A DNA stretch of 64,000 bases from Deltaproteobacteria bacterium (GTDB lineage: Bacteria; Myxococcota_A; UBA9160; UBA4427), in assembly GCA_029261855.1 (NCBI GenBank), contig JAJDAN010000003.1, forward strand, positions 62,001 to 126,000. Reading direction: 5' to 3'. Shown one piece after another: positions 26,496-35,207 of this stretch. Made by a program: the position numbers and the translations under genes. The stretch's first letter is position 1, and the number at the start of each line of letters is the position of its first letter. Below the pieces are notes generated by a model. It worked only from the letters and a program-made list of their open reading frames with translations. It had not been told where the DNA came from and made no database searches.

Positions 26496-27260
26496 CTAGG
26501 ACGAGCGAACCTGCGGCCCCCGGTTCCAGTCCCGCTTCCAGCGCGCGTGGTTTCGCAGCCCGTCCCGGACGTAGCCCGTCATGCGCAAGCCGCGCAGGAA
26601 CAGGTCGGATACCAGTGCTCCTCGCCAACGCATGGGGCGTCGGAAGTCGAAGAGCAGGATCACGCGGTATTCGTCCGTATCGTTCCAGACCTCGTGGGAG
26701 AGGGTGTCGTCGAAGATGAGCAGTTCGCCGTCCGCCCAGCTGCAGGTCTGCGTCCCGATGCGGATGCGACAGTCACCACGTGCTCCCGGAACGATCAGCC
26801 CCAGATGCCCGCGCACGATGCCCTTGGTCACCCCCCGATGTGCCTGGACGTGTGCCCCCGGCGGCAGCACCGAGTAGAAGGCGGTCTCGAGTCCGGGCAC
26901 GGCCGCCAGGAGTCGTCCGGTCTCGGGGCAAGCGGCGAGCGCGTCTTCGTCGCGATGACCGACCGCGTAGAAGAAGAAGGTCTTCCAGCGGGCATCCGGT
27001 GCGATCCGCTGTTGGTCGGGCGATAGCGCGGCGAAGCCGGGCAACTCGTCTCGGCGCGTGAGGATCCGTTCCGCCTCGTCGCGTATCGGCTTCCAGTGTG
27101 CCAAGAAGAAGTCGGACCAGGCGAAGGTCGACGCGTCGAAGACGGCGGGATCACCGATCGTCGACTGAGCCGCGAGAAAGCCAGACAAACGACGGATCGC
27201 CCGCTTGCCGAGCTTCTTCACCAATCGACGCCGATAGCGGCGAACGGAATTCAACGGCAA
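26496..27260 (-). CDS. Aspartyl/asparaginyl beta-hydroxylase family dioxygenase
   Basis: 254 aa. The start is TTG at 27258-27260, with GGAGGA upstream. Conserved features of the LpxO/AspH fold are present: WKTFFFYAVGHRD, then PGLETAFYSVLPPGAHVQAHRGVTKGIVRGHLGLIVPG with the first iron His in AHRG, and WADGELLIFDDTLSHEVWNDTDEYRVILLFDFRRP with the second His in SHEVWN and the 2-oxoglutarate Arg in EYRVILL. The family hydroxylates Asp/Asn residues or lipid A acyl chains. The basic N-terminus (RRYRRRLVKKLGKRAIRR) suggests membrane-surface contact, closer to LpxO, but the substrate is unproven. The 202-bp gap downstream to the DegT stop holds nothing I recognise. Confidence 0.88.
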   Translation of the reverse strand: MPLNSVRRYRRRLVKKLGKRAIRRLSGFLAAQSTIGDPAVFDASTFAWSDFFLAHWKPIRDEAERILTRRDELPGFAALSPDQQRIAPDARWKTFFFYAVGHRDEDALAACPETGRLLAAVPGLETAFYSVLPPGAHVQAHRGVTKGIVRGHLGLIVPGARGDCRIRIGTQTCSWADGELLIFDDTLSHEVWNDTDEYRVILLFDFRRPMRWRGALVSDLFLRGLRMTGYVRDGLRNHARWKRDWNRGPQVRSS

Positions 27261-27293: not shown

Positions 27294-30200
27294 TCAAGAG
27301 AGGATGGCGAGCAGCTCGCGTGCCCTGCGAAGGTCCGCTGTCTCCTTCCCCTCACTGAGCCCATTGTACACACCGCCTAGCAAGTCGCGGCCCTCGTCCT
27401 TGTGACCTTCCGCAAGCATGCGTGCGGCCAGACTGGTCGCAGCACGCAGCTCGAACGCCTTCAGGCCCCGGGCACGCGCCTCCTCGAGCGCCCCGTGCAA
27501 GAGTAGATCGCCTTCGTCGCGACGCGACGAGTCGACGCGCAGCAGCAGCTCTCCCTTCTGACGACGAAGCTCCGCGTCCATGTACGGAGTCTTCGTCTGC
27601 TCGGCGAGGGCGAGCGCCTGGTCGAGGGCCGACAACGCGTCCGCCCCCCGTCCCGCCGCGGTCAACGCTTCGGCGTAGATTCCCACGATGCCGGGCCCCA
27701 CGACGTGGGTCCCCGTTCCGGCCAGGCCTGCAAGCCCCCGCTCGAGTTGCTCGAGACCCTGGGGTCCTCCATCCCGCATGACCCGGGCCCAGCCCGCGAG
27801 CACCGCACCCAGCCCGTGCCAGAGCACGTAGCCGCGCTTTCCGGCCACCTCGAGGATCGCCTCCGCACGTTGCGAGACGCCGTCCACATCGCCCCGGAGC
27901 TGCGCGACCCAGGCCGCCCAGGTCAGGGCGAACGCCAGGGTCAGATCGTCGACGGCATCCGCGACCGCCTGCTCGTTCTGACGCACAGCGCGATCCGCGG
28001 ACCCGAGCTGCCACAGGCAGAGCGCCAGGTACGACCGGGCCGAGACCGCGGGGTCTTGTCCATAGGCATAGGCGAGGGACCGATGCTGCACCGGGTCGTA
28101 GCGGTCTGCAGCGCGCTCGAGATGACTGGTCGCGCGCGCCGGCTGGCCGGTCCAGAAGAGCGGGATCCCGAGCGACAGGTCCGCGGAGACCCGTAGCTTC
28201 GAGTCCGAAGCCAGCTCGGCCATGGCCAGCATCCGGTCGCCGAGGGAGACGGCCGTCTCGAGCTCACCCCGAGCCTGGTGAAAGACGGACAGCCCGAACA
28301 GCGCGGGTCCCGTTTCGACAGTCGGACCGATGGCCGTACAGAGTTCCTGGGCACGCTCGAACACCCGCTCGACGTCCGGGTCCGACGCGCCTTCGGCCGC
28401 CATCGAATGCACGCCGAGCTGCACCTGGAAGTTGAGCTCCTGCAGCTGGGTCTCCGCCGTGACAGGCACCTCCGACAGCAGTTCGAGCCCGCGAGACAGA
28501 TGCCGGATCGCCTCCGAAGTGGCGGAACGCGATGCCGCCTGCTCGGCCGCCTCCTGGTACCAGCCGATGGCCAGGGCGGCGATCCCGGCCTCGTCATAGT
28601 GGCGCGCGATCAGCTCCGGCTCGGCGGCGACCCGTCCCGACGGACCCTCAGCAAGGGCGCCCGCGACCCCGCGATGCAGGCGGCGGCGCGCGCTCCGCAG
28701 CAGGGACTCGTAGGCGGCGTCCCGGATGAGCGCGTGCCGGAACGAGTAGCTCGCGCGAGGCGACTCGCCCTGGCGGACCAGCAGACCCGCGCGTGTCAGT
28801 TCGGCCAACCCCGCTTCCAGGGCGTCCGGTGTCGCTTCACTGATGACGGCCAGCAGCTCGTGGGTAAAGTCTCGGCCCAACACGGAGGCCTGCTGGGCGA
28901 TCTCCTTGGCGGGCCCGAGTCGATCGAGCCGTGAGGCCAACGAACTCTTCAGCGTCGAGGGAATCGAGAAGCCGGCGAGCCCTTCCGCCGCGTCGGGAGA
29001 AGCGCCGGACTCGAGTACCGCACGCGCGAGCTCCTCGACGAAGAGCGGCACGCCGTCGGCCTTCGCGACGATCCGGGTCACCAGCGGCTGGGCCCAGCGT
29101 TGACCGGGGCGGATGCCCTCGACCATCTGCGCCGTCTGCTGCCGCGTGAGCGGATTCAGTGCCACCTGACGGACCCGCGACGACGGCGCGAAGGCCGGCG
29201 TGCGAGACGGCTCGAAGGACGGCCGGTAGGTCAGGATCACCAGCAACCGTTTCCAGGAGACCTGCTCGATCAGCAACGAGAGCAGCTCGAGGGTCGAGGG
29301 ATCGACCCAATGCAGGTCCTCGACGACGAGCACGACGGGCTCGTCTTCGGACAGGCGGAACAACCAGGCCGTCAAGAGTTCGAGGCTCTTGCGGCGCTGG
29401 ACCTCGGGATTGCTCGGCGCCTCCCGGTAGCCGACGGGGAGCTCCACCGACAGCAGCTTGGCCAACACGGGCATCACGTCGTCCAGGGACAAGCCCGCGG
29501 GCTCGAGTGCCTGCTCGATCTTCTCGGCGCGGAGCTCGCTGGGATCGTCCGGCTCGAGCCCGATGACCTCGCGCAGCAGGGCGAGTACGGGATGGAAGGC
29601 GCTGTTCTCGTAGTACGGAGAGCAACACCCCTCCAACCACAGGTGCGCGGAAGAGCCGAGTCGCTCGTGCAGGACCTCGAGCAGCCGCGACTTGCCGATG
29701 CCGGGCTCGCCGCTGAGCAGCACCACTTGCCCGGATCCCTGCCGGACCTGCTCCCACTTCTCGAGCAGCAGCGAAATCTCCTGATCGCGACCCACGAAGG
29801 GAGTCCGGTCTGCACCGTCGTCGCGAGCGCCCCGCGCGAGCACGCGGTAGACCGAAAGCGGTTCCTGGATCCCCCGGAGGCTGCGCTGCCCCAGCCCTTC
29901 CATGTCGAACTGGTCCTTCACCAGGTGGCGTGTCGCTTCACTGATCACCACGGTTCCGGACTCGGCCTCCCCCTGCAGGCGCGCCGTGATATTGATCGTG
30001 TCTCCCATCGCGATCCGGTCGCGTCCTCGCCCAAGGGCGCCCACCACCACCTCGCCGGTGTGGATCCCGATCCGGATCTCGAGAGGTCGCCCGCGCAGGA
30101 CCGGCAGGCGATCCACGAGCTGTCGGTTCAGCGCCGGCATCTCCCGCAGGATCTCGAGCGCCGCCTGGACGGCTCGCGTGGGATCGTCCTCGTGCGCGCG

Positions 30201-30506
30201 GGGATAGCCGAAGTAGACGAGCAGCCCGTCTCCGAGATACTGCGCGATCGTTCCGTCGTTGACCGCAATGCTGCGCGCGCAGAGTTCCTGATACGCGCCG
30301 ATGGCAGCCCCGAGCTCTTCCGGGTCGAGCCGCTGCGAAAGCTCGGTCGAGTCCACGAGGTCGCAGAACATCGAGGTGATGTGACGGCGCTCCCCTTCCG
30401 GAGTCGGAAGCTCGATCCAGCCGTCCGCGCCCGCGAGCGCACATCCGCAACGCATGCAGAAGCGTGCATCGGACGGGCTCTCTTGGTGGCAGGAAGGACA
30501 GTTCAC
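27294..30506 (-). CDS. Zinc-ribbon, class III cyclase, AAA ATPase and TPR multidomain protein
   Basis: 1070 aa from the GTG at 30504-30506. The open frame continues upstream through the NTAQ1 gene, which is rejected. Order: zinc ribbon (CPSCHQESPSDARFCMRCGC, residues 3-22); class III nucleotide cyclase domain with ITSMFCDLVDSTELSQRLDP, IAQYLGDGLLVYFGYPRAHEDD, IRIGIHTGEVVVGALG and DTINITARL, where both metal Asp residues and the N-x3-R pair are present; an AAA ATPase/STAND module with Walker A GEPGIGKSRLLE and Walker B VVLVVEDLHWVD; then about 500 residues of helical TPR-like repeats. It is probably a cytoplasmic signalling protein making cAMP or cGMP in response to protein partners. The signal sensed is unknown. 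Confidence 0.92.
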   Translation of the reverse strand: MNCPSCHQESPSDARFCMRCGCALAGADGWIELPTPEGERRHITSMFCDLVDSTELSQRLDPEELGAAIGAYQELCARSIAVNDGTIAQYLGDGLLVYFGYPRAHEDDPTRAVQAALEILREMPALNRQLVDRLPVLRGRPLEIRIGIHTGEVVVGALGRGRDRIAMGDTINITARLQGEAESGTVVISEATRHLVKDQFDMEGLGQRSLRGIQEPLSVYRVLARGARDDGADRTPFVGRDQEISLLLEKWEQVRQGSGQVVLLSGEPGIGKSRLLEVLHERLGSSAHLWLEGCCSPYYENSAFHPVLALLREVIGLEPDDPSELRAEKIEQALEPAGLSLDDVMPVLAKLLSVELPVGYREAPSNPEVQRRKSLELLTAWLFRLSEDEPVVLVVEDLHWVDPSTLELLSLLIEQVSWKRLLVILTYRPSFEPSRTPAFAPSSRVRQVALNPLTRQQTAQMVEGIRPGQRWAQPLVTRIVAKADGVPLFVEELARAVLESGASPDAAEGLAGFSIPSTLKSSLASRLDRLGPAKEIAQQASVLGRDFTHELLAVISEATPDALEAGLAELTRAGLLVRQGESPRASYSFRHALIRDAAYESLLRSARRRLHRGVAGALAEGPSGRVAAEPELIARHYDEAGIAALAIGWYQEAAEQAASRSATSEAIRHLSRGLELLSEVPVTAETQLQELNFQVQLGVHSMAAEGASDPDVERVFERAQELCTAIGPTVETGPALFGLSVFHQARGELETAVSLGDRMLAMAELASDSKLRVSADLSLGIPLFWTGQPARATSHLERAADRYDPVQHRSLAYAYGQDPAVSARSYLALCLWQLGSADRAVRQNEQAVADAVDDLTLAFALTWAAWVAQLRGDVDGVSQRAEAILEVAGKRGYVLWHGLGAVLAGWARVMRDGGPQGLEQLERGLAGLAGTGTHVVGPGIVGIYAEALTAAGRGADALSALDQALALAEQTKTPYMDAELRRQKGELLLRVDSSRRDEGDLLLHGALEEARARGLKAFELRAATSLAARMLAEGHKDEGRDLLGGVYNGLSEGKETADLRRARELLAILS

Positions 30507-30718
30507 GGATCGCTCGGATCGGGCCGGATTCGGGTTGGGATTCGGATTCGGCCGAACGGTGCCATAGTGGCGAGCAACACGGCCGTATACCAGGGCACAC
30601 TTGCCGGGCGGAGATGTGGCAGCACCCAGCCGGGCGAGCTTCCCTGACGGCCGGAACCGCAGCTTCCGGCTTGCTGCGGGTGCACGGCCTTCTGCCCCGC
30701 ACGCTCCTGGCGACCAAT

Positions 30719-31267
30719 ATGGACGGACCGACACACTACTGGCCCTACTACTGTGAGGAGAACGTCTGGCACGCCGCCGCCGACCCCCTCGCCGCCGGAC
30801 GCGTCGCGTATGCGCTGTTCGTGTCCAACGAGCAGTGCCGCGTCGCCATGTGGGAGCAGCGCGCAGCGCCCCGGGGCGAAGCCATCTTGTGGGACTACCA
30901 CGTGGCGCTACTCGAGCGTGAAGACGACGACTGGACGGTCTTCGACCCGGACTGCCGGGTGGCAGAGCGATTGCCCGCCGACGAATGGATCGAGCGGAGC
31001 TTCGGCCCGCTGCCCGCGGCCGCGCGAGAGTTCGCGCCCTGCTTCCGCCTGGTCGCTGCGGACACGTACCGCCGCGAGCTGTGCAGCGACCGCGGTCACA
31101 TGCGCCGCGGTGAGGAGTGGCGAGCGCCACCGCCACCGTGGCCCGCGATCGGAGCAGGGTCGAACCTGATGCGCTTCGTCGACATGGAAACGAGCTTCCG
31201 CGGACGCGTGCTCGACCTCGAAGCGCTCCGTGACTTCCTCAGCGGGGAAGCGGATTGTCAGCCATGA
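30719..31267 (+). CDS. NTAQ1: Protein N-terminal glutamine amidohydrolase (NTAQ1 family)
   Basis: 182 aa. It lines up with human NTAQ1 by memory along its whole length: YYCEENVWH, YALFVSNEQCRVAMWEQ, ILWDYHVALLERED, FDPDCRV, FRLVAADTYRRELCSDRGHMRRGEEWRAPPPPWPAI, NLMRFVDM. The catalytic triad is Cys12 (CEEN), His61 (WDYHV) and Asp76 (FDPD), matching human Cys28, His81 and Asp97. The enzyme deamidates N-terminal Gln to Glu, making a secondary N-degron. In bacteria this would feed Bpt-type leucyl-transferase and ClpS, neither in this window. The ATG at 30719 is chosen because the family begins near here; upstream in-frame sequence looks non-coding. The 3' end overlaps the convergent dehalogenase by 29 bp. 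Confidence 0.93.
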   Translation: MDGPTHYWPYYCEENVWHAAADPLAAGRVAYALFVSNEQCRVAMWEQRAAPRGEAILWDYHVALLEREDDDWTVFDPDCRVAERLPADEWIERSFGPLPAAAREFAPCFRLVAADTYRRELCSDRGHMRRGEEWRAPPPPWPAIGAGSNLMRFVDMETSFRGRVLDLEALRDFLSGEADCQP

Positions 31268-32249
31268 AGCGGACCACCGCGGCCGCCACGTCCTCGCCGG
31301 CGTCCTCCTGCAGGAAGTGGCCCGCGCCGGCGATCGTCACGTGCTTCTGCGACTTGGCACCCGGGACTTCTTCCTGGAAGCGGACGTGGGCACCGCGGGT
31401 CACCGGGTCGCCGTCGGAGAATGCGGTCAGGAAGGGTCGGTCGAAGCGCCGGAGCACTTCCCAGGCGGCCTGGTTGTCGGGGATCGCCGGATCATCGGGG
31501 AAGACCGGGACGAGGCTCGGGAACTGGCGCGCCCCGGCCATGAACTCCGGTCCCGGGAACGGCGCGTCGTACGCCGAGAGCACCTCGTCCGGCAGGACGC
31601 GGCCACCGGCGTGGAGCATGATGTCGGAGATCTTCAGCTCGGGAGTCTCCGCGCAGAACTTGCGCCAGTAGAGAAAACCCGGCGCTCCGTCCGTGGCTGC
31701 GAAGCGCTGCCCCAGCTCGGACACGTCGACCACGGGCAGGCTTTCGTACAGCGCCCGCATGGGACCGGCTGCATCCGCCGGAACGCCGGCCCCGTCGGGC
31801 AACGCGGTGTTCGCCGTCACGACCCGCGCGAACCGTTCCGGGTGTTGCGCGACGAGTCGCAGTCCCACGAGTCCGCCCCAGTCCTGGCAGAAGAGCGTGA
31901 CGTCGCGCAGGTCCAGCTGTTCGAGCCAGGCACTCATCCACGCGACGTGATTCGCATAGCTGTAGTCGCTGCGCTCGCTGGGCTTGTCGGAACGACCGAA
32001 GCCGACGAAGTCGGGGGCGATCACGCGATGACCCGCCGCCGTGAGGACGGGAATCATCTTGCGATAGAGATAGGACCAGGTCGGTTGCCCGTGGAGGCAC
32101 AGCACGGTCTCGGCGTTCGCATCACCCCGGTCGACGTGATGAATGCGAAGACGCCCGCCCTCGCCGTCCGGGACCTCGCTGTAGTTCGGCGCGAAGTCGT
32201 ACCCGGCGAGACCCTGAAAGCGTTCATCGGGAGTTCGGAGTGTCTGCAT
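31239..32249 (-). CDS. Haloalkane dehalogenase-like alpha/beta hydrolase (HLD-I, DhlA/DhmA type)
   Basis: 336 aa from the ATG at 32247-32249. The oxyanion motif is HGQPTWSYLYRKMIPVLTAAGHRVIAPDFVGFGRSDKP, very close to DhlA. The nucleophile is Asp123 in FCQDWGGLVGL, with the adjacent Trp124 that helps bind halide. Acid residue candidate is in FSDGDPVTRG and the base His in AGAGHFLQED. An Asp nucleophile with DWGG and the GQPTW motif marks haloalkane dehalogenases rather than esterases (Ser) or epoxide hydrolases (two lid Tyr). Real substrates could be halogenated alkanes or an unknown natural compound. It is divergent from DUF3604; a 10-bp palindrome ACTGCGCAGT lies at 32251-32260, just before its start. 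Confidence 0.88.
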   Translation of the reverse strand: MQTLRTPDERFQGLAGYDFAPNYSEVPDGEGGRLRIHHVDRGDANAETVLCLHGQPTWSYLYRKMIPVLTAAGHRVIAPDFVGFGRSDKPSERSDYSYANHVAWMSAWLEQLDLRDVTLFCQDWGGLVGLRLVAQHPERFARVVTANTALPDGAGVPADAAGPMRALYESLPVVDVSELGQRFAATDGAPGFLYWRKFCAETPELKISDIMLHAGGRVLPDEVLSAYDAPFPGPEFMAGARQFPSLVPVFPDDPAIPDNQAAWEVLRRFDRPFLTAFSDGDPVTRGAHVRFQEEVPGAKSQKHVTIAGAGHFLQEDAGEDVAAAVVRFMADNPLPR

Positions 32250-32311
32250 GACTGCGCAGTCTATCCCAGCTGCCCTGGTGCATGTCGACGGAGCGCTAAG
32301 CTCGGCGGCGC

Positions 32312-34543
32312 ATGACCCTCCGGCGCGCGCTCCTGGCACTCGTACTCGCTCTCGTGATCGGCGCGGGCGCAGGACTGTGGGGTCTCGGGCGCGGCGCTCT
32401 CGGCCGCTCCGATTCCGAAGACCTGCGCCCCAGCGGCAGCGCGCGCACGACCGACGCCGTCGACGCCGTACGCGCCGCGGACGCCGCCGCGGCCCATGCC
32501 GTCGGCGTCTCCCCCGAGAACGCCGCGCGTCAGATCCTGTTCGGCGATCTCCACGTGCACACCACGATTTCCTTCGATGCGTTCATGCTCAATCTTCCCT
32601 TGATGGGGGGAGAAGGCGCCCACCCGCTCGCCGACGCCTGCGACTTCGCGCGTCACTGTGCGGAGCTCGACTTCTGGTCCATCAACGACCATGCCGCGAA
32701 CATCCTGCCCGACGACTGGCAGAACACCATCGAGTCCATTCGCCAGTGCAACGCAGTCGCCGGCGACCCGGCGGACCCGGACCTCGTGTCTTTCCTCGGC
32801 TGGGAATGGACACAGGCCGGACGCACGGCCGCCGACCACTACGGGCACAAGAACGTCGTGCTGGCAGGCCTCGACGACGATCAGATCCCGACCCGGCCGA
32901 TCGCCGCGAGTCGCGGCGGGCTCGCAGCGAACCCGCCCTCGGTCTGGGCACGCGGCGCACTCGCGCTCCAGGGCGGGCGCTTCCACGACATGGCGCGCCG
33001 CTGGACGACCATCAGCGAGCTACCGGTCTGCGAAGACGGCGACGTGCGCGCGCTCGCCGCAGACTGCCGCGAGATCGCCGAGACGCCGGCAGAACTCTTC
33101 CGCAAGCTCGACGAGTGGGGCCACGACAGCCTCGTCATCCCCCACGGCACGACCTGGGGCATCTACTCGCCCCCGGGCTCGGACTGGGAAAAGCAGCTGC
33201 GCGGCGACCTCCACGATCCGGCCAGACAGACGCTGCTCGAGGTCTACTCGGGTCACGGCGAGTCCGAGGTCTACCGGGACTGGCGCGCGGTGTCCTTCGA
33301 CGCGAGCAACAGCGCCGGCGAGGCCAGCTGCCCCGACGAACGCCCGGACTACCTGCCCATGTGCCAGCGCGCCGGCCAGATCATCGAGGCGCGTTGCCTG
33401 GCCGAGGGCCAGGCACAGAGTGAATGCGCGCGACGCGCGGCCGAGACCCGGGCGCAGGCTGCGGCGGCCGGGGTCTCGATGCAGGTCACCGTCCCGGGCG
33501 CGACCGCAAGCGACTGGCTCGACGCCGGGCAGTGCCGCGACTGCGGCCAACCGGCCTTCAACTACCGCCCGATGGGCTCGGCCCAGTACATCGCCGCCTT
33601 GGGCGACTTCAGCGAGGACCCGCCCCGACGCTTCCGCATGGGCTTCATGGCGTCGAGCGACATCCACACCGCGCGAGCCGGCGTCGGCTACAAAGAAGAG
33701 CGCTGGCAGACCGACGCCGGCCAGGACCCGCGTCCCCTCGGCGACGGCATCGTCGGGCGCTTCTTCCAACCACCGCCGGAGCCAAAGCGCGCCGAGGGAC
33801 GTTCCTACGAAGAGGCAGCCGCATCGCTCTCCGGAATCCAGCTCTTCGAGCGCGAGCGAACGCAGTCCTTCCTGTACACCGGCGGCCTGGTGGCGGTGCA
33901 CGCAACAGGCCGCGGCCGCGCGGCGATCTGGGACGCCCTGGCGCGACGCGAGGTATACGGCACCAGTGGCCCCCGGATCCTGATGTGGTTCGACCTGCTG
34001 CACGAGTCGGGGTCGGTTCCCATGGGCGGTGAGATCAGCCTGCGCGACGCACCGATCTTCCGCGTGCGAGCGGTGGGCTCCCTCGAGCCGGCGCCCGGCT
34101 GTCCCGAGGAAGCGCACCGGGCGCTCGGGGCCGAGCGCCTGCAGGCCCTGTGTCGCGGCGAGTGTCGAAACGCCAGCGATGTGCGACGACGCATCGATCG
34201 GATCGAGATCGTCCGGATCCGCCCCCAGCGCACCCCGGACGAGCCGATCGCCCGCCTGATCGACGATCCCTGGCGCAGCTTCGCCTGCCCGCCGGACGGC
34301 GAGGGCTGCAGCGCGACTTTCGTCGACGAGGAGTACCCCGCCGCCGGACGCGACACGGTCTACTACGCCCGGGTCTTCGAGGAACCGACCCCGGCGGTCA
34401 ACGGATCGCCCCTGCGCTGCCAACGGGACGACGCGGGACGTTGCACCGAGACGAAGCCGTGCCAGCGAGGCGAGCCGTGCCTCGACGACTTCGCCCAACG
34501 GGCCTGGGCGTCACCGATCTATGTCGATTGGGCGGCGCGCTGA
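32312..34543 (+). CDS. DUF3604 domain-containing protein
   Basis: 743 aa. An N-terminal signal or anchor (LRRALLALVLALVIGAGAGLWG) is followed by the DUF3604 core. It opens with QILFGDLHVHTTISFDAFMLNLPLMGGEGAHPLADACDFARHC, where HVH is a PHP-like metal site, and continues with FWSINDHAANILPDDW, VSFLGWEWTQAG, HYGHKNVVL and VIPHGTTWG. FMASSDIHTARAGVGYKE and YGTSGPRILMWFDLL are further conserved blocks near 440 and 540. DUF3604 proteins are related to PHP-type metallohydrolases and are often exported; function is unknown. The Cys-rich end (DDAGRCTETKPCQRGEPCLDDF) suggests disulfides and a periplasmic place. The last 21 bp are half of a short direct repeat shared with the convergent gene. Confidence 0.92.
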   Translation: MTLRRALLALVLALVIGAGAGLWGLGRGALGRSDSEDLRPSGSARTTDAVDAVRAADAAAAHAVGVSPENAARQILFGDLHVHTTISFDAFMLNLPLMGGEGAHPLADACDFARHCAELDFWSINDHAANILPDDWQNTIESIRQCNAVAGDPADPDLVSFLGWEWTQAGRTAADHYGHKNVVLAGLDDDQIPTRPIAASRGGLAANPPSVWARGALALQGGRFHDMARRWTTISELPVCEDGDVRALAADCREIAETPAELFRKLDEWGHDSLVIPHGTTWGIYSPPGSDWEKQLRGDLHDPARQTLLEVYSGHGESEVYRDWRAVSFDASNSAGEASCPDERPDYLPMCQRAGQIIEARCLAEGQAQSECARRAAETRAQAAAAGVSMQVTVPGATASDWLDAGQCRDCGQPAFNYRPMGSAQYIAALGDFSEDPPRRFRMGFMASSDIHTARAGVGYKEERWQTDAGQDPRPLGDGIVGRFFQPPPEPKRAEGRSYEEAAASLSGIQLFERERTQSFLYTGGLVAVHATGRGRAAIWDALARREVYGTSGPRILMWFDLLHESGSVPMGGEISLRDAPIFRVRAVGSLEPAPGCPEEAHRALGAERLQALCRGECRNASDVRRRIDRIEIVRIRPQRTPDEPIARLIDDPWRSFACPPDGEGCSATFVDEEYPAAGRDTVYYARVFEEPTPAVNGSPLRCQRDDAGRCTETKPCQRGEPCLDDFAQRAWASPIYVDWAAR

Positions 34544-34578
34544 ACGCACACCGCTAGGTCGACTGGGCGGCGCGCTGA
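34523..34578. repeat. 21-bp direct repeat pair at two convergent gene ends
   Basis: Copy 1 (34523-34543) and copy 2 (34558-34578) differ at one base: GTCGATTGGG in one and GTCGACTGGG in the other, both followed by CGGCGCGCTGA. The copies are 35 bp apart. Copy 1 encodes the last residues VDWAAR of DUF3604; copy 2, read on the other strand, encodes RAAQS at the end of the VTT protein. A local tandem-type duplication is the simplest explanation. Confidence 0.8.
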
Positions 34579-35207
34579 GATCGCACTCGGCGCCACTGGT
34601 AGAGGAGAGTCCCGGCGACGAGCAGGGCTGTTCCGGGTCGCCAATACAGGTCGATCCAGGCGAGCAGCTGCTCGATCGGCTCGCGCAGCATCTCCGCGAA
34701 CAGCAGGATGCCGATCATTCGAAGCACGAGCCCCACGGTGGCCAGGGGCACGAAGGTCCGCATGGACATCCCCGACATGCCCGCCAGCGTGCTGATGGTC
34801 GGACCGGTGGACAGGAACACCACGGTGCGGGACCAGCGCGCGAAGAGACGTTCGACCAGTCGCACGAAGCGGGCCAAGCGCGCGGCACGCGCTTCCAGCC
34901 ACACGACGCCCGTGGGTCCCATGGACCGGCCGAGCTGAAAGCAAGCCACGTAGAAGATCATGCGCCGCACCACGGCGACGGCCACCAGGGCGAAGGGGTC
35001 GACGACGGCGGCGGCCAGGATCACGTGACGCCCCAGCGGGCTCAAGGCGACCAGCAGCAGGGGGTAGTGGTTGACGAGGTAGAGCGACGACGCGACGCCG
35101 CTCATCGAGCCGACCGACAAGACGCCGAGCACCGACAGCGAGCGCCGCGCCAGCGCGCGCTGTTCGGGGTCCAGAACGGCCGGGTCGGGTGCGAGGTCCA
35201 TCGCCAT
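34554..35207 (-). CDS. DedA/VTT-like membrane protein
   Basis: 217 aa with several hydrophobic spans: SLSVLGVLSVGSMSGVASSLYLVN, HVILAAAVVDPFALVAVAVV, RTFVPLATVGLVLRMIGILLFA and PGTALLVAGTLLYQW. The region around FYVACFQLGRSMGPTGVVWLEARAARLARFVRLVERLFARWSRTVVFLSTGPTISTLAGMSGM resembles the VTT/SNARE-associated domain of DedA-type proteins, which includes lipid scramblases and flippases. The match is by pattern only. The C-terminus (RAAQST) comes from a short duplicated segment. The MFS gene on the same strand ends 39 bp upstream. Confidence 0.65.
   Translation of the reverse strand: MAMDLAPDPAVLDPEQRALARRSLSVLGVLSVGSMSGVASSLYLVNHYPLLLVALSPLGRHVILAAAVVDPFALVAVAVVRRMIFYVACFQLGRSMGPTGVVWLEARAARLARFVRLVERLFARWSRTVVFLSTGPTISTLAGMSGMSMRTFVPLATVGLVLRMIGILLFAEMLREPIEQLLAWIDLYWRPGTALLVAGTLLYQWRRVRSQRAAQST

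Follow-up and report, generated by a model that had tools for sequence, protein, structure and literature searches.

At the locus studied here lies a stand-alone gene for a homologue of NTAQ1, the N-terminal glutamine amidase, between a divergent cyclase/AAA regulator gene and a convergent alpha/beta hydrolase gene. Coordinates are those of the window, the whole stretch of 64,000 nucleotides that was analysed, and are collected in Table 1. The open reading frame of the NTAQ1 gene has exactly the boundaries listed. Its ATG start, 11 codons ahead of the predicted nucleophile, agrees with that of most relatives; in-frame GTG codons upstream may be alternative starts, and no clear ribosome-binding site precedes the ATG. 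No signal peptide was seen in the product. The GC fractions at the three codon positions (0.72/0.52/0.83) resemble those of most neighbouring genes.

Table 1. Features of the NTAQ1 locus in window coordinates
Feature	Position	Strand	Remarks
NTAQ1 homologue, predicted protein N-terminal glutamine amidohydrolase, 182 aa	30719..31267	+	profile, structure-sequence, alignment and model matches
Cys12 codon TGT, predicted nucleophile, within CEEN	30752..30754	+	invariant in 24 sequences; aligned to human Cys28
WDYHV motif, W58/D59/Y60 and predicted catalytic His61	30890..30904	+	equivalents of human substrate-strand Trp78/Asp79/Tyr80
Asp76 codon, predicted third triad member	30944..30946	+	aligned to human Asp97
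Adenylate/guanylate cyclase and AAA ATPase regulator, divergent neighbour	27294..30548 (5' end approximate)	-	also adjoins NTAQ1 in same-genus genome
Alpha/beta hydrolase, convergent neighbour	31239..32315	-	not at this place in same-genus genome
Aspartyl/asparaginyl beta-hydroxylase domain protein	26496..27260	-	PF05118, E 1e-46; ~3.5 kb from NTAQ1 gene
Predicted membrane-like protein	34554..35207	-	no Pfam match; adjoins MFS transporter; product 76% identical to counterpart in same-genus genome (L132)

The hydrolase gene, on the opposite strand, overlaps the NTAQ1 gene over the latter's final 29 bases. In the same-genus genome the order is cyclase, NTAQ1, permease-like, MFS, PNPOx and esterase, without the alpha/beta hydrolase and DUF3604 genes that are interposed in the window. 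Across 81 NTAQ1 loci no neighbour was conserved beyond close relatives, recurrent neighbours being those of close kin or members of promiscuous families. Nor did a ClpS, Aat or ATE gene lie near NTAQ1 in any of the 81 loci, with flanks of at most 8 kb, and an operon or neighbourhood link to N-degron genes was rejected.

Family identity and active site

The Pfam profile Nt_Gln_amidase (PF09764) matched the product over positions 1-182 of 184 with an E of 3.1e-38 and 131.6 bits, the curated cut-off being 27 bits, and a sequence search matched the human NTAQ1 structures 3c9q and 4w79 at E 8e-24. Phmmer aligned residues 7-155 of the window protein with residues 23-177 of human NTAQ1; the match that the initial annotation had claimed over the full human length thus covers most of that length, not all of it. 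Human NTAQ1 has a catalytic triad of Cys28, His81 and Asp97 (PMC4214742). Cys12, His61 and Asp76 of the window protein align with these residues in that order and are found where they had been placed from the sequence; together with W58, D59 and Y60 they are invariant among 24 aligned bacterial sequences. In the human structure the same WDYH contacts the N-terminus of the substrate. The human substrate strand reads VIWDY (residues 76-80) and that of the window protein ILWDY, with W58-D59-Y60 identical and I and L at the preceding two positions. Tyr111 of the human enzyme bonds Asp97, whereas the window protein has Trp90 at the equivalent position.

An AlphaFold model made from an input alignment of 24 phylum sequences had a pLDDT of 93.1 and a pTM of 0.89. 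When it was compared with the PDB by Foldseek, all 17 matches at E<=0.001 were human NTAQ1 chains (E between about 4e-14 and 7e-16; TM, normalised by query length, 0.80-0.84). Because the significant matches are all human NTAQ1, the protein is predicted from its model to be NTAQ1, more than merely a papain-like hydrolase. Another glutamine deamidase or cysteine hydrolase, protein-glutaminase-like or effector-like and with the fold alone in common, would belong to the same superfamily and would fit the weak Pfam match to Gln_deamidase_2 (E 0.016) and the next Foldseek matches, protein-glutaminase and the SseI catalytic domain (E 0.05-0.07). That reading is very improbable: the NTAQ1 match is many orders stronger than these, the substrate-strand residues are NTAQ1's, and neither a secretion signal nor a toxin context was found.

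The NTAQ1 identity first proposed is borne out by the sequence, by the residues of the triad and the substrate strand, and by the predicted fold. By homology, the product is probably (about 0.8) a true amidohydrolase of the NTAQ1 family, acting on N-terminal Gln in the cytosol of a bacterium with ClpS and Aat. We infer both the cytosolic setting and the role, which would be the processing of proteolysis-derived N-terminal Gln ends in bacteria with a ClpS/Aat N-degron system. In the proposed reaction, Cys12, activated by His61 and Asp76, would attack the side-chain amide of a Gln in first position in a protein or peptide, while the WDYH strand would hold the N-terminal backbone of the substrate; ammonia would be released and an N-terminal Glu left.

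Distribution and descent of the family

The NTAQ1 family is known mainly from eukaryotes, and the initial annotation had presented the gene as a eukaryote-type amidase in a bacterium. Relatives were found in 51 of 379 sampled Myxococcota genomes, as a single copy in each. When GTDB species genomes of bacteria and archaea were scanned with a single protein as query there were no matches, and with an alignment as query 163 loci encoding relatives were confirmed. The phylum range is drawn from the 80 of these loci that were kept, which include Myxococcota, Pseudomonadota (Chromatiaceae, Thiolinea), Melainabacteria/Obscuribacterales, Planctomycetota, Acidobacteriota, Desulfocapsa, Lentisphaerota, Bacteroidota and Spirochaetota. 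The Pfam PF09764 model already covers bacterial sequences; NCBIfam has no model for the family. Searches of viral contigs, plasmids and phages gave no relatives, and a mobile-element origin was rejected.

A tree of 87 sequences places the window protein beside the same-genus homologue (support 99/92), and the pair is nested in a six-row Myxococcota clade of its own bacterial family (98/93). The position of human NTAQ1, the sole eukaryotic sequence included, was unsupported and shifted between two trees. Two other members of the window's bacterial family, G149 and G192 (L084 and L060), fall in a different supported clade; two NTAQ1 lineages in one bacterial family (L060 and L084 versus L040-L045) suggest transfer or an old duplication.

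Recent acquisition of the gene from a eukaryote, or contamination by one, would be in keeping with the mainly eukaryotic record of the family and with a top bacterial identity to human NTAQ1 of 45%. Such an origin is nevertheless highly improbable, given the genome-typical codon positions, the same cyclase neighbour in the same-genus genome, the supported clade that unites it with five others from its own bacterial family and the 163 related loci in the bacterial and archaeal collection; a recent transfer from a eukaryote is already contradicted. An NTAQ1 gene does lie in a bacterium, but the label eukaryote-type is misleading because many bacterial phyla have members of the protein family and because this copy clusters with genes of its own bacterial family, and the notion of an isolated gene does not survive these counts. 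NTAQ1, treated as eukaryotic in the open-access literature searched, extends to bacteria. No description of a bacterial NTAQ1 was found in that literature.

N-degron genes and the role of NTAQ1

The window's genome, which is 98.6% complete, contains ClpS (E 9e-31), ClpA (1024.8 bits against a curated cut-off of 993) and Aat. As to Bpt/Ate1, neither ATE_C nor ATE_N was found in this genome, two ATE-positive genomes having matched as controls in the ATE_N search; among the listed members of the window's bacterial family, ATE_C was present in G212 only. NTAN1, as a second amidase, was found in none of 58 genomes, in a search without a positive control. An extended N-degron path through Bpt and ClpS, or else another use, had been suggested from the sequence. 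The ClpS part of that path is present, together with ClpA and Aat, and the Bpt part is absent by both domains. Because there is no Bpt/Ate1, the relay from Gln through Glu and Leu-Glu to ClpS by way of Bpt cannot run in this genome, and the Glu product would not be open to leucylation by Bpt. This genome therefore calls for either the other use or a Glu transferase not yet recognised.

In Myxococcota, ClpS is present in 50/51 NTAQ1 genomes versus 277/328 others (p=0.007), and Aat in 49/51 versus 274/328 (p=0.018); the two Aat-less NTAQ1 genomes are only 65% and 77% complete. ATE_C is present in 23/51 versus 124/328 (Fisher p=0.36), and coupling of NTAQ1 to Bpt within the phylum was rejected; all three p values ignore shared ancestry. 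The ClpS-less genomes appear to be concentrated in few families, and the association of NTAQ1 with ClpS may derive from few independent events. Of 25 named genomes from many phyla, a set of NTAQ1-bearing genomes only that shares at least two members with the phylum sample, 21 carry ATE_C, 24 carry ClpS and all 25 carry Aat. The relay from Gln through Glu and Leu-Glu to ClpS-ClpAP is genetically complete in the Bpt-bearing NTAQ1 relatives. In four Chromatiaceae genomes (G383, G386, G393 and G397) aat lies ~1 kb from an ATE_C (bpt-type) gene, with clpS ~3 kb beyond, and NTAQ1 lies away from this group.

Two readings of the role, both compatible with the enzyme-level explanation, are given about equal weight. 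The first, which we hold tentatively, is a tertiary N-degron in many bacteria: NTAQ1 would convert N-terminal Gln to Glu, Bpt would add Leu or, in Bpt-less genomes such as this one, Aat or an unrecognised transferase would add Leu or Phe, and ClpS would deliver the product to ClpAP, eukaryotic NTAQ1 then being one branch of a family common among bacteria. The near-constant company of ClpS and Aat argues for it, as does the ATE_C gene in most of the named genomes, where the relay at least has all its genes. The missing coupling to ATE_C within the phylum argues against it, and so does the genome's Aat, which keeps the canonical residues W49, W111, E156, D186 and Q188 (E. coli numbering). These positions, which we take to matter for catalysis or acceptor binding, are kept in every Aat copy recovered, which were all but two of those chosen for comparison. 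An altered Aat acceptor site as the partner of NTAQ1 was rejected, there being no shift relative to the Aat of NTAQ1-less relatives. Aat position 193, again in E. coli numbering, is Asn in four NTAQ1-bearing genomes of genus g4 (L141-L144) and otherwise His, also in the one NTAQ1-less g4 member (L155); the Asn193 pattern could be a chance of descent. According to PMC6135404, Plasmodium falciparum has an Aat-type enzyme that puts Arg onto Asp/Glu; the acceptor specificity of the Aat fold can therefore change, a precedent that favours the tertiary N-degron.

The second reading, possible to a like degree, is a housekeeping role outside targeted proteolysis, in which conversion of Gln to Glu would prevent the cyclisation of peptides with N-terminal Gln to aminopeptidase-proof pyroglutamate, or would recover nitrogen. 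Such a role requires no transferase and is consistent with a stand-alone gene without conserved neighbours and with the retention of NTAQ1 in 28 Myxococcota genomes lacking Bpt/Ate1. It leaves unexplained, however, why NTAQ1 is nearly absent from genomes without ClpS and Aat.

Comparison with known systems

To our knowledge, published accounts of the bacterial N-degron pathway include no destabilising residues other than primary and secondary ones. Bacterial NTAQ1, being widespread and found alongside ClpS and Aat, suggests that this pathway has a tertiary step. The persistence of NTAQ1 in Bpt-less genomes points to one of two things, a Glu transferase not yet recognised or a function of NTAQ1 apart from targeted degradation, and both can be tested directly in cultured relatives. 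Because NTAQ1 genes are scattered over many bacterial phyla and the genomes that carry them almost always have the ClpS machinery, the existence of a bacterial third-step degradation signal is now testable.

NTAN1 and yeast Nta1 deamidate N-terminal Asn, and Nta1 also Gln; their folds are unrelated to that of NTAQ1 (PMC7022378). Protein-glutaminase of Chryseobacterium (2ksv) has the same superfamily fold and Cys-His-Asp chemistry, at TM 0.39 and E 0.05, and deamidates Gln within proteins, unlike NTAQ1 with its N-terminal Gln. From the bacterial N-degron pathway of E. coli and Vibrio vulnificus (Aat, Bpt, ClpS and ClpAP; PMC3692480), ClpS, ClpA and Aat are also found here; the V. vulnificus Bpt adds Leu to N-terminal Asp/Glu (PMC3692480). 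The described pathway is without the amidase step, whereas this genome is without Bpt. Human NTAQ1, or WDYHV1 (3c9q, 4w79, 6kgj and entries beginning 8jj and 8jk), has the C/H/D triad and nearly the full domain in common with the window protein, including the CEEN, WDYHV, SDRxHM and PPPP blocks, at TM 0.80-0.84 and about 31% identity. The product of the human enzyme goes on to ATE1 arginylation and ubiquitin ligases, whereas this genome, with no ATE1/Bpt, would use ClpS.
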